DNA from: Nocardioides salarius
GTDB lineage: Bacteria > Actinomycetota > Actinomycetes > Propionibacteriales > Nocardioidaceae
NCBI RefSeq assembly: GCF_016907435.1
Contig: NZ_JAFBBZ010000001.1
Span: 3,348,001-3,412,000 of the forward strand
Direction: 5' to 3'
DNA length: 64,000 nt
Of the stretch, positions 6,168 to 8,774 are shown in pieces. The translations under genes were made by a program, and so were the position numbers. Within the stretch, counting starts at the first letter, position 1. Each line of letters starts with the position of its first letter. The notes beneath the pieces are model-generated. The model saw only the letters and a list, made by a program, of their open reading frames with translations. It was not told the origin of the DNA and did not search any database.

Positions 6168-6893
6168 GTGCTGCTGCGCGACGCCGCCCTCGACCTGCTG
6201 CTGGGCAGCGCCTGCGTGGGCTGTGGCGAGCCGGGCCGGCTGCTGTGCGCCGGCTGCGCCGCGGGCCTGCCCGCCGCTGCCGTGCCGGCCCGCCCCGACC
6301 CCTGCCCGCCGGGGCTGGTGGACTGCTGGGCGGCGGGGGACTACGACGCGGTGCTGCGCGCGCTGGTCCTGGGCCACAAGGAGCGCGGCCTGCACGCGCT
6401 GCGGGTCCCGCTGCGGGACCTGCTGCTGGTGGCGCTCGGGCCGGCCCTCGCCGGGCTGGGCGGGCCGGGCGGCACCGGCGGGCTGGTGCTGGTCCCGGTG
6501 CCCTCGCGCGCAAGCACGGTCCGGGCCCGCGGGCACGACCCGACGTGGACGATGACGCGCGGGGCCGCGGCGGCGGCCGCCCGCTGCGGCCTGCCCGTGA
6601 GCGCCGCGCGGCTGCTGCGGCTGCGTCCCGGGGTGCTCGACCAGGCCGGCCTCGACACGGCCGCTCGCGCGGCGAACCTGACCGGCTCGATGACCTGCCC
6701 CTCGCCCGGGCTGCGGCGCCTGGCCGCCACGCACCCGCGGGCCCAGGTGGTCGTGTGCGACGACGTGGTGACCACGGGCTCCACGCTGCGCGAGGCCCAG
6801 CGCGCCCTGGAGGCCGTCGGGGTCGGCGTGGCGGGCGCGGCCGTCGTCGCGGCGACGCGGCGGCGGCGCCCGTCGGGGGCCGGCCCAGGGTGA
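6168..6893 (+). CDS. ComF-family phosphoribosyltransferase-like protein
   Basis: The 241-residue protein has an N-terminal zinc-finger-like pair (CVGC near residue 16 and CAGC near 28) and a C-terminal phosphoribosyltransferase fold with the PRPP loop VVVCDDVVTTGSTL. ComF/ComFC proteins take part in DNA uptake in transformable bacteria, but in actinobacteria the gene is kept beside lpqB and hpf and its role is not settled. The GTG at 6168 gives the expected N-terminus. It follows lpqB by 81 bp. The next gene on the same strand, hpf, is separated by a 474-bp non-coding stretch. Confidence 0.85.
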   Translation: MLLRDAALDLLLGSACVGCGEPGRLLCAGCAAGLPAAAVPARPDPCPPGLVDCWAAGDYDAVLRALVLGHKERGLHALRVPLRDLLLVALGPALAGLGGPGGTGGLVLVPVPSRASTVRARGHDPTWTMTRGAAAAAARCGLPVSAARLLRLRPGVLDQAGLDTAARAANLTGSMTCPSPGLRRLAATHPRAQVVVCDDVVTTGSTLREAQRALEAVGVGVAGAAVVAATRRRRPSGAGPG

Positions 6894-6932
6894 AAGGTGC
6901 GGGGGTCCCTTTCGCCGCGACCGCGCCTCGCC

Positions 6933-6938
6933 TATCGT
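6933..6938 (+). promoter_or_regulatory. Possible -10 box for the hpf leader RNA
   Basis: TATCGT lies 40 bp after comF in an unusually AT-containing patch. The -35 region (TTTCGC at 6910-6915) is a poor match. If used, transcription would begin near 6945 and give an untranslated leader of more than 400 nt before hpf. Confidence 0.3.
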
Positions 6939-7052
6939 CTCGTCATGGAGTCCGTCCGGGTCCGTGGTTGCGTCGTCAGGACGCGCCGGCCAGCCCGGAC
7001 GTCCTCGCGGCAAGCCGATGCCAGTCGCAGGCGAAGCGGTCCACGTAAGTCG

Positions 7053-7080
7053 GTGCGCGGGGCGCGAGCCCCGGGCGCAC
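7053..7080 (+). other. Stable hairpin in the hpf leader
   Basis: GTGCGC (7053-7058) and GGGGC (7059-7063) pair with GCCCC (7068-7072) and GCGCAC (7075-7080), with a GCGA loop and a 2-base bulge. The 9-mer ACGTAAGTC occurs just before it (7043-7050 region) and again at 7102-7110, an AT-containing repeat that stands out from its surroundings. It may be the first domain of the structured leader or a separate terminator of the comF transcript. Confidence 0.5.
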
Positions 7081-7109
7081 GACGATCACGGTGCGGCTTA
7101 GACGTAAGT

Positions 7110-7337
7110 CCTGCCCCGGTCCGGCCACCAGATGTGGCCGTCGCCGGGAGAAGGTGGGTAGTGGCAGAGAAGCTGCGAGAGCCTCAGCAGGCGATTGTGG
7201 GGTCGAAGACCAGGTCGGCCGGGCGGGCTCCATCTCGTTCCCACCACCGGGCGCAGCGCGTCCGGTGGTCGGCCTGGCGCCGTCCTGCGCGCGCAGCGCG
7301 ACGGGGAGGCGTGCCAGGAGCCTGAGAGGTAACCCAT
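7110..7337 (+). ncRNA. Structured leader RNA upstream of hpf, candidate raiA-motif RNA
   Basis: No credible coding frame covers 6894-7367, and this part folds well. GGCCAC (7123-7128) pairs with GTGGCC (7134-7139), with an outer CCCGG/CCGGG extension. CCAGG (7210-7214) pairs with CCTGG (7273-7277), enclosing the perfect 8-bp stem ACCACCGG/CCGGTGGT (7243-7250 and 7262-7269). CCGTC (7280-7284) pairs with GACGG (7300-7304). The raiA RNA motif is known from Firmicutes and Actinobacteria, is roughly 200 nt long, and lies near raiA (hpf) and comFC genes. Both neighbours are present here in the expected order. I identify it by position and structure, not by a covariance model. Confidence 0.55.
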
Positions 7338-7338
7338 C

Positions 7339-7353
7339 GCGCACCTGGTGCGC
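7339..7353 (+). promoter_or_regulatory. Hairpin directly before the hpf ribosome-binding site
   Basis: GCGCAC (7339-7344) pairs with GTGCGC (7348-7353) around a CTG loop. The GAGGAGG ribosome-binding site follows at 7356-7362. A hairpin 2 nt from the ribosome-binding site could influence initiation or be the last helix of the leader RNA. Its regulatory role is inference. Confidence 0.4.
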
Positions 7354-7367
7354 ACGAGGAGGTTCAC

Positions 7368-7997
7368 ATGGAAGTTGTGGTCACCGGCCGGCACTGCGAG
7401 ATCAAGGAGGGCTTCAGGGCCCACTGCTCGGAGAAGCTGGCGAAGCTCGAGAAGCACGACCACCGGATCATGCGGGTCCACGTGGAGGTCGACTGCGAAC
7501 CCAACCCCCGCCAGCACGACCGCGCCGTGCACGTGGAGCTCACCGCCTTCTCCAAGGGCCCGGTCATCCGGGCCGAGGCGGCTGCCGACGACAAGATGGC
7601 CGCTCTCGACCTGGCGCTGGACAAGATGGCGCGCCAGATGCAGCGCGCCGCCGACCGGCGCCGGGTGCACCGGGGCCGCAAGACCCCGGTCTCGGTGGGC
7701 GAGGCGCTCTCCGGCACCCCGATGGTCCAGGACCTCGTCGGCGACGACGAGAGCGGGGAGACCGAGACCGAGCGCGAGGTCGGGCCCGTGGCCATGGACG
7801 GCGACGGACCGATGATCGTGCGCGAGAAGACCCATCCGGCCAGTCCGATGACCCTCGACCAGGCCCTCTACGAGATGGAGCTGGTGGGCCACGACTTCTA
7901 CCTGTTCGTCGACAAGGAGAGCGAGCGGCCCTCGGTGGTCTACCGGCGCCGGGGCTACGACTACGGCGTGCTCTCGCTGGACCTGGGCCAGGACTGA
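7368..7997 (+). CDS. hpf: Ribosome hibernation promoting factor, long form (RaiA/HPF family)
   Basis: The 209-residue protein has an N-terminal S30AE/RaiA domain (about residues 1-105, starting MEVVVTGRHCEIKEGFR) and a conserved C-terminal dimerisation domain (about 145-205, including ALYEMELVGHDFYLFVDKE). The long form dimerises 70S ribosomes into inactive 100S particles in stationary phase or stress. A strong GAGGAGG site lies 6 bp before the ATG. The gene is preceded by a long structured leader and followed by an exceptionally strong hairpin, so it is probably transcribed alone. In actinobacteria hpf is often induced by hypoxia; no regulator site was recognised here. Confidence 0.93.
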   Translation: MEVVVTGRHCEIKEGFRAHCSEKLAKLEKHDHRIMRVHVEVDCEPNPRQHDRAVHVELTAFSKGPVIRAEAAADDKMAALDLALDKMARQMQRAADRRRVHRGRKTPVSVGEALSGTPMVQDLVGDDESGETETEREVGPVAMDGDGPMIVREKTHPASPMTLDQALYEMELVGHDFYLFVDKESERPSVVYRRRGYDYGVLSLDLGQD

Positions 7998-8081: not shown

Positions 8082-8774
8082 GTGGCCGACGAGACGACGG
8101 GTCCCGCTGCGGCGGGCGCCGAACCCATCCGCGTGATGGTGGTGGACGACCAAGAGCTCTTCCGTCGCGGCCTGACGATGCTGCTCGGCGTCGAGGACGG
8201 CATCGAGGTCGTCGGCGAGGCGGGCGACGGGATCGAGGGCACCACCCTGGCCGCGGCCGTGGCACCCGACGTCGTCCTGCTCGACATCCGGATGCCCAAG
8301 CGCACCGGCATCGAGGCCTGCCAGGCGATCAAGGAGGCCGTGCCCTCGGCCAAGATCATCATGCTCACGGTCTCCGACGAGGAGGCCGACCTCTACGAGG
8401 CGGTCAAGAGCGGCGCCTCCGGCTACCTGCTCAAGGACTCCTCCATCGAGGAGGTCGCCCAGGCGGTGCGGGTCGTGGCCGACGGCCAGTCGCTGATCAG
8501 CCCCTCGATGGCCGTCAAGCTCATCGACGAGTTCAAGCAGATGAGCAAGCCCGAGCGCGAGCACGTGCCCGGGCTGCGCCTGACCGAGCGCGAGCTCGAG
8601 GTGCTGCGCCTGGTGGCCAAGGGCATGAACAACCGCGAGATCGCCAAGCAGCTGTTCATCTCCGAGAACACCGTCAAGAACCACGTGCGCAACATCCTCG
8701 AGAAGCTGCAGCTGCACTCGCGGATGGAGGCGGTCATGTACGCCGTGCGCGAGAAGCTGCTGGACCTGCCGTAG
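8082..8774 (+). CDS. Orphan NarL/FixJ-family response regulator
   Basis: The 230-residue protein has a receiver domain (about residues 16-135) with phospho-acceptor D68 in VVLLDIRMPKRTG and a C-terminal LuxR helix-turn-helix (about 165-225, including LTERELEVLRLVAKGMNNRE and FISENTVKNHVRNILEKL). No histidine kinase gene is adjacent, so its partner is unknown. A homologous regulator between hpf and secA is usual in actinobacteria. The GTG at 8082 starts the protein 20 bp after the hpf hairpin; the following gene begins 5 bp after its stop, suggesting co-transcription. Confidence 0.88.
   Translation: MADETTGPAAAGAEPIRVMVVDDQELFRRGLTMLLGVEDGIEVVGEAGDGIEGTTLAAAVAPDVVLLDIRMPKRTGIEACQAIKEAVPSAKIIMLTVSDEEADLYEAVKSGASGYLLKDSSIEEVAQAVRVVADGQSLISPSMAVKLIDEFKQMSKPEREHVPGLRLTERELEVLRLVAKGMNNREIAKQLFISENTVKNHVRNILEKLQLHSRMEAVMYAVREKLLDLP

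Follow-up and report, generated by a model that had tools for sequence, protein, structure and literature searches.

The raiA RNA upstream of hpf in Nocardioides salarius: a conserved RNA that probably shares a transcript with hpf and can persist where no Hpf is detected

The hpf gene of Nocardioides salarius is preceded by a long stretch of DNA in which no gene is found, which raises the question of what this stretch encodes and whether it serves hpf. We examined it as part of a 64-kb stretch of the genome (64,000 nucleotides, the window); coordinates are those of the window and features lie on its forward (+) strand unless stated otherwise. The upstream neighbor is a ComF-family gene (6168–6893, called comFC in the original prediction) with the Pfam phosphoribosyltransferase domain PF00156 (E = 4e-8). 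The downstream neighbor is a long-form hpf/raiA gene (7368–7997), in which both the N domain of S30AE (PF02482, E = 1.3e-21) and the C domain (PF16321, E = 6.4e-24) are recognized and whose closest named match is from Nocardioides cremeus (98%). Its ribosome-binding site, GAGGAGG at 7356–7362, recurs among aligned relatives. Between the end of the ComF-family gene at 6893 and the first base of hpf at 7368 lies a gap of 474 nt (6894–7367). A gene-free gap of this length flanked by comFC and hpf had been described before from the sequence, and the extent of the gap as well as the domains on either side agree with that description.

The original prediction went on to propose that the gap probably holds a raiA-motif RNA and named the Rfam covariance model as a check. 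We therefore ran cmscan with the complete Rfam 15 on the whole window, applying the gathering scores. The sole match is the raiA (ModT) RNA, RF03072, at 6951–7227. It is complete over model positions 1–209 and scores 120.8 bits (E = 4e-29) against a gathering score of 101.3. The whole 4.47-Mb genome likewise contains one match to this model. Folding of 6951–7367 gives −232.1 kcal/mol compared with −209.1 ± 6.7 kcal/mol for 100 dinucleotide shuffles, none of which was as good. The two neighboring genes are those known for this RNA class, for which the published synteny is 74% comFC and 66% raiA (as quoted in PMC11706538). In the Nocardioidaceae hpf lies downstream of the RNA in 70 of 70 loci, every match being on the strand of the RNA, and a ComF gene lies upstream on the same strand in 68 of 70. 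The two loci without a ComF match are L044, which is cut by a contig end, and L052.

Long mechanical open reading frames cross the gap (6897–7325 on the + strand and 6976–7344 on the − strand), as is usual at high G+C content, and the gap might accordingly be read as a small coding gene or as G+C-rich sequence that folds by chance. The full covariance-model match and the pairing described below, which is kept with changes on both sides and holds against controls, refute this reading; moreover the length of the gap and the sequence outside the RNA vary freely. We regard its probability as negligible. A mobile or viral origin was considered as well and rejected: a core pattern of 17 letters occurs in 17 IMG/VR stretches, by a rough estimate about the number expected by chance for that base count, and in the 16 that were scanned (L321 was omitted because of its size) no family scored above its Rfam cut-off. 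Phage records gave no match. One record of the plasmid collection, NZ_LT559118.1, an 11.85-Mb Nonomuraea replicon, has a raiA-like stretch; this replicon is probably a chromosome.

In order to assess whether the structure is conserved, we aligned 145 raiA RNAs from Nocardioidaceae and other families, counted the pairs formed, and used partners slid by 1–3 columns and 500 shuffles as controls. Paired cells amount to 98.7% for P1, 100% for P3a, P3b and P6, 99.3% for the pseudoknot pk1, 86.4% for four pairs of P5, 93.9% for P7 and 95.3% for P8, while slid partners reach 0 to 65%. The observed pairing of any helix was reached in 0 of 500 shuffles, which ignore relatedness and are applied to a structure drawn from one sequence of the set. 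By both controls the helices P1, P3 and P5–P8 are kept in the relatives. Changes on both sides of a pair occur in 11 of 17 pairs of P1 (slid partners at most 6), two of four pairs of P3a (at most 1), three of seven pairs of pk1 (at most 1), four of four pairs of P5 (at most 4), four of five pairs of P7 (at most 5) and seven of eight pairs of P8 (at most 7). Since the slid versions of P5, P7 and P8 can be equally rich in such changes, the percentage of paired cells is the better sign for these three helices. P3b and P6 hardly vary and therefore tell little about conservation, and P4 occurs in two registers, each of which keeps some pairs and breaks others. Covariation among relatives had been suggested as a further check, and it is found in P1 and its extension, P3a, P5, P7, P8 and pk1; together with the match above the Rfam cut-off, these compensatory changes support membership in the raiA family, and the original prediction survives the refutation it had set for itself, namely a missing model hit and missing compensatory changes.

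The individual elements can be placed as follows. P3 spans 7014–7040, with P3a formed by 7014–7017 and 7037–7040 and P3b by 7020–7022 and 7030–7032, and is paired in 145 of 145 sequences; the P3a pair 7015:7039 is C-G in 114 sequences and T-A in 31. The seven pairs of pk1 (7023–7098) join the P3 loop, 7023–7029, to the P5–P6 junction, 7092–7098, and are kept as family membership would predict. Pair 7029:7092 is A-T in 132 sequences, T-A in 5 and G-C in 3, and pair 7025:7096 is T-G in 82, C-G in 57, A-T in 3 and T-A in 2. The positions of pk1 and P3 were transferred from the cryo-EM description in PMC11751092 by way of the Rfam numbering. P5 is a hairpin at 7049–7083 (−28.4 kcal/mol, z = −4.6), and the multi-stem domain P6–P7–P8 at 7110–7191 (z = −3.6) belongs to variant 2 of the family. 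A perfect stem noted earlier at 7123–7139 does exist and lies inside the RNA, in the distal part of helix P7 (7122–7128 with 7134–7140). The letters TTAGA are missing in 70 of 145 loci and are thus a poor test of orientation, which is confirmed by the 5’ ends. At the place of the optional P2, a label given here by position, the window carries a hairpin (6972–7011) that is an insert relative to the Rfam model (−22.6 kcal/mol; z = −1.8, matched by 11 of 200 shuffles). Long P2 inserts were also observed in ten other loci (L053, L056, L058, L061–L063 and L066–L069). There the Rfam model misplaces or cuts the 5’ end of the RNA, and we reset this wrong or missing end by means of the conserved strand of P1. 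Surveys may overlook loci of this kind or give them low scores.

P1 itself extends at least four pairs beyond the Rfam model, as judged from the alignment. Just outside the Rfam ends, ATGGAG at 6945–6950 faces CTCCAT at 7228–7233. The 5’ strand reads ATGGAG in 66 of 77 Nocardioidaceae loci and ATGGCA in 11 of 77, and the first four pairs, mostly GGAG:CTCC and in those 11 loci GGCA:TGCC or GGCA:TGTC, form in 77, 76, 77 and 77 of 77 loci. These counts include an extension of the 3’ end of the RNA in L058 and L068 by 6 and 20 nt; before it they were 75, 74, 77 and 76. When all 145 sequences are counted, 91.2% of the cells of these four pairs are paired, versus 34 to 58% for slid partners. Both sides change in four of four pairs, and in 2 to 4 pairs with slid partners. 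Conservation does not extend to the two outermost pairs (54 of 77 and 33 of 77 loci).

With the RNA ending at 7227, or at 7231–7233 when the P1 extension is included, only part of the 474-nt gap is raiA RNA. The original prediction had taken the gap for a probable raiA-motif RNA, and this holds for 6951 to 7227 (7231–7233) but not for the hairpins in the remaining 3’ part. Two further perfect stems, 7243–7269 and 7280–7304, are both present but are located 3’ of the RNA, in the leader of hpf. The former is a predicted 12-pair hairpin and the latter is contained in a second predicted hairpin at 7273–7318. Folding of 7228–7377 gives −80.9 kcal/mol compared with −66.9 ± 4.0 kcal/mol for 200 shuffles, none of which was as good. 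In an alignment of ten sequences both larger hairpins look alike by eye only in the window and its two closest relatives, L051 and L031. A hairpin 2 nt before the hpf ribosome-binding site is likewise present as described, with 6 pairs at 7339–7353, and likewise lies outside the raiA RNA; taken by itself it carries little weight (z = −2.1; matched by 7 of 200 shuffles). It is identical in the window, L051 and L031, and the other seven of the ten aligned sequences are without that form. We therefore rejected the leader hairpins as parts of the raiA RNA: by eye they are limited to the closest relatives, and the raiA RNA needs none of them to be complete.

Next to the predicted RNA start we noticed a promoter-like arrangement. 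A −10 box, TATCGT at 6933–6938, is spaced for a start at A6945, the first base of ATGGAG, so that the 5’ strand of the P1 extension would coincide with the first transcribed bases. The pattern TANSGTY-N5-ATGGMR is found at the start of the raiA RNA in 59 of 70 Nocardioidaceae loci; eight of the 11 remaining loci miss it by a base and three by a one-base shift in spacing. The simpler TANNNT occurs within 60 nt upstream of the RNA in 70 of 70 loci, compared with a mean of 21 in dinucleotide-shuffled sequences. A possible −35 hexamer, TTTCGC at 6910–6915, 17 nt before the −10 box, is suggested weakly and by its spacing only. A scan of 6880–7400 for consensus sigma-70 promoters gave no −35/−10 pair and no terminator-like site, which points to a −35 element that is weak or atypical.

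The picture is the opposite between the RNA and hpf. The gap from the RNA to hpf measures 30–172 nt (median 80) and is 50 nt or shorter in seven of 70 loci; the shortest, 30 nt in L016, has room for little beyond the ribosome-binding site. TANNNT is found in none of the 70 gaps, with a dinucleotide-shuffled mean of 10.7 and a lowest value of 5 among 200 shuffles, and a run of five T, as expected for a U-run terminator, is likewise seen in none. By eye little recurs in this gap across relatives except the ribosome-binding site. With a likely promoter before the RNA, none seen before hpf and a gap of down to 30 nt, the RNA and hpf probably form one transcript, and hpf would normally be read from the raiA promoter. 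In titles and abstracts we found no paper on the transcription of raiA RNA in Actinomycetota; Soares et al. 2024 was outside the coverage of this search.

Alternatively, as one of the checks in the original prediction envisaged, the raiA RNA could be a separate short transcript; it would end just after 7233, with hpf read from a promoter inside the leader (7234–7350). In Clostridioides difficile transcription of the RNA begins at a SigA start of its own and stops at two sites (PMC11706538), and in the window strong hairpins follow the RNA. However, TANNNT falls below all 200 shuffles in the gaps, seven gaps would leave 50 nt or less for such a promoter, and the consensus scan reported neither a promoter nor a terminator. 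A promoter of another type, or one inside the RNA, may still serve hpf. We consider separate transcripts improbable and a joint transcript the better account of the Nocardioidaceae loci.

If RNA and hpf share a promoter, the question arises whether one can be found without the other. RF03072 was detected in at least 70 of 149 Nocardioidaceae genomes, a lower bound set by strict filters, whereas hpf is present in 148 of 149. For 40 of the 79 genomes without a hit we inspected the region in front of hpf; the absence of the RNA elsewhere in these genomes follows from the strict-filter genome search. Even with a permissive threshold (E up to 0.1) no RF03072 match was found upstream of hpf in the 40 genomes. 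In 18 of these 40 raiA-less loci (L071–L110) the strict promoter, followed by ATGGAG, ATGGAA or ATGGCA, is nevertheless located before hpf (expectation from mononucleotide shuffling 0.0), and a looser form is located there in 28 of 40 (expectation 0.04). Neither pattern is seen in the other 12. Among the 18 loci with the strict promoter, six (L071, L072, L074, L075, L081 and L103) contain a broken 5’ strand of P1 that retains 14 to 22 of 24 bases; among all 24-mers of the loci, 0.001% to 0.46% do equally well; in the remaining 12 no clear remnant of the raiA RNA was found. On a tree of hpf and ComF (118 rows) the presence and absence of the RNA needs at least 12 changes, seven of which are forced by starred branches, and the outgroups carry the RNA. 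From the tree by itself gains and losses cannot be distinguished, but the P1 remnants together with the raiA-carrying outgroups speak for loss. Repeated losses in which the promoter is kept provide related natural plus/minus pairs.

The reverse case was found outside the family. Among 396 genomes sampled across the phylum at least 137 carry the raiA RNA (strict filters, lower bound), and in seven of these 137, six from family f53 and one from f66, a search for S30AE gave nothing at E ≤ 0.001. In the class sample, families f78 and f107 contribute seven raiA-carrying genomes in whose loci hpf had not been seen, and all seven are without an S30AE match at the same threshold; S30AE was detected in four of four raiA-less Nocardioides searched alongside as a control. 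Altogether 14 genomes from four families keep the RNA without a detected Hpf domain. The absence rests on HMM searches of genomes that are partly incomplete, the lowest two of the 14 being 76% and 86% complete; two others, G568 and G846, are 100% and 98% complete. The RNA can thus persist without detectable Hpf, and Hpf without the RNA. Among the Hpf-less raiA loci (L141–L144 of f78; L147, L163 and L168 of f107; L323 and L324 of f53; L325 of f66) the gene following the RNA was read from translations in six: secA in L141 and L324, a response regulator and then secA in L325, a transporter in L147 and L163, and a large secreted repeat protein in L323. Several Hpf-less raiA genomes are small, and the f78 loci have ComF upstream. 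In the window a LuxR-type response regulator (8082–8774) comes after hpf; the regulator gene between raiA and secA in L325 is similar, as if hpf had been lost from a fixed block.

These dissociations bear on the possibility that the raiA RNA is a cis-acting regulator of hpf, which would sense a ligand and control translation of, or readthrough into, hpf through the downstream hairpins. Rfam types the family as “Cis-reg; riboswitch”, hpf is the next gene after the RNA in 70 of 70 family loci, where a joint transcript is suggested, and a hairpin precedes the ribosome-binding site by 2 nt in the window and two close relatives. A conserved expression platform was, however, not found between RNA and hpf in the 70 loci: the gap is variable and contains no run of five T, no terminator-like site is seen in the window, and the hairpins are, by eye, lineage-specific. 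Furthermore, loci that lack the RNA still have hpf behind the same promoter, and the RNA, which as a riboswitch should always accompany the gene it regulates, is present in the 14 genomes without S30AE and in the six loci read is followed by genes of other types. Complementation in trans has been reported in two Clostridia (PMC11706538), as has abundance of the RNA in C. difficile. The label “riboswitch” is therefore not supported by our findings, and a cis-acting role appears unlikely.

A link to c-di-GMP has been drawn for ModT in C. difficile, where deletion goes along with raised c-di-GMP, connected to a sporulation defect (PMC11706538). By analogy the RNA could regulate a growth transition through c-di-GMP, and the genome of the window does contain two GGDEF matches. 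Within the family, GGDEF was detected in 94 of 149 genomes: 41 of the 70 raiA-carrying genomes have it and 29 do not, while among genomes without a raiA hit the numbers are 53 and 26. The presence of the RNA and of GGDEF is not associated (Fisher p = 0.31, kinship ignored). In the 29 raiA-carrying genomes no GGDEF was found at E ≤ 0.001, and a repeated search with E up to 10 gave none above the cut-off; sub-threshold matches occur in 14 of the 29 (best E = 0.001). EAL matches at E ≤ 0.001 are absent from all 29. Outside the family, GGDEF is missing in three of three Hpf-less raiA genomes of f107 but present in four of four of f78. As the RNA is kept in genomes with neither GGDEF nor EAL, c-di-GMP is unlikely to be its general route, although it may be an output in Clostridia. 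For the RNA discussed here we rate regulation through c-di-GMP as very unlikely.

Taken together, hpf kept without the RNA, the RNA kept without Hpf and its carriers without GGDEF or EAL favor a trans-acting RNA over a riboswitch of hpf. The reports on Clostridia, which describe trans action and no expression platform (PMC11706538, PMC11751092, PMC11477304), agree with a trans model. We propose that transcription would start at A6945 from the −10 box TATCGT, and that the RNA 6945–7233 would fold into an architecture closed by the long P1 and centered on pk1. The polymerase would continue through the leader into hpf, making the RNA the 5’ part of a raiA-hpf transcript, from which it would be freed by cleavage or partial termination in the leader (7234–7350). 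In this clade the hairpins at 7243–7269 and 7273–7318 may shield the 3’ end created by release, or they may mark where the RNA is cleaved or the polymerase pauses; many relatives do not show them, so release need not rely on these hairpins. The freed RNA would then act in trans as in Clostridia, in a process that would need neither Hpf protein nor c-di-GMP, and hpf would be its cotranscribed neighbor and not its target. We assign this model as a whole, from the RNA’s own promoter to trans action, a probability of about 0.72. RNA and hpf are probably neighbors with separate jobs; their close order with ComF could still reflect a functional link. More tentative, with odds slightly below even, is the narrower proposition that Nocardioidaceae produce the RNA solely as the hpf mRNA leader, from which it has to be excised, its ancestral job being a core growth process that requires neither Hpf nor c-di-GMP. 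If this is true, a family with many losses of the RNA and the promoter kept on hpf offers ready natural knockouts for finding the job of the RNA.

The RNA class, its neighboring genes and its structure are already known. New, as far as we can see, are the proposed shared promoter, the losses that spare it, the genomes with the RNA but without Hpf, and those with the RNA but without c-di-GMP enzymes. Among bacteria the raiA RNA is widely conserved. The double dissociation and the persistence without recognizable c-di-GMP enzymes narrow its possible functions. If the promoter is shared as proposed, the RNA should be released in a separate step, which is open to experiment in a genus of environmental soil bacteria.

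When comparing the window with characterized members of the family, we found the full RF03072 match, the family stems with the large P6–P8 variant, pk1 and the position between ComF and hpf in common with the raiA motif, whereas P1 is at least four pairs longer and a 40-nt hairpin is inserted at P2. The RNA of Clostridium acetobutylicum, known from cryo-EM (9CXF; PMC11751092), shares the seven-pair pk1 between P3 loop and P5–P6 junction, P3a and P3b, and P6–P8; the window differs from it by the added P2 arm and by a P1 longer than the Rfam model. C. difficile ModT belongs to the same RNA class and also has a promoter directly before the RNA. It is a stand-alone RNA with its own terminators, two termination sites being reported, and the next gene there is a PTS antiterminator, whereas in the window hpf is next, no U-run terminator is seen and RNA and hpf apparently form one transcript (ModT data from PMC11706538). 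The same paper reports that four orthologs were swapped into C. difficile, three of them called Bacillota and one, from Acetohalobium arabaticum, called Actinomycetota; in the NCBI taxonomy A. arabaticum is placed in the Bacillota.
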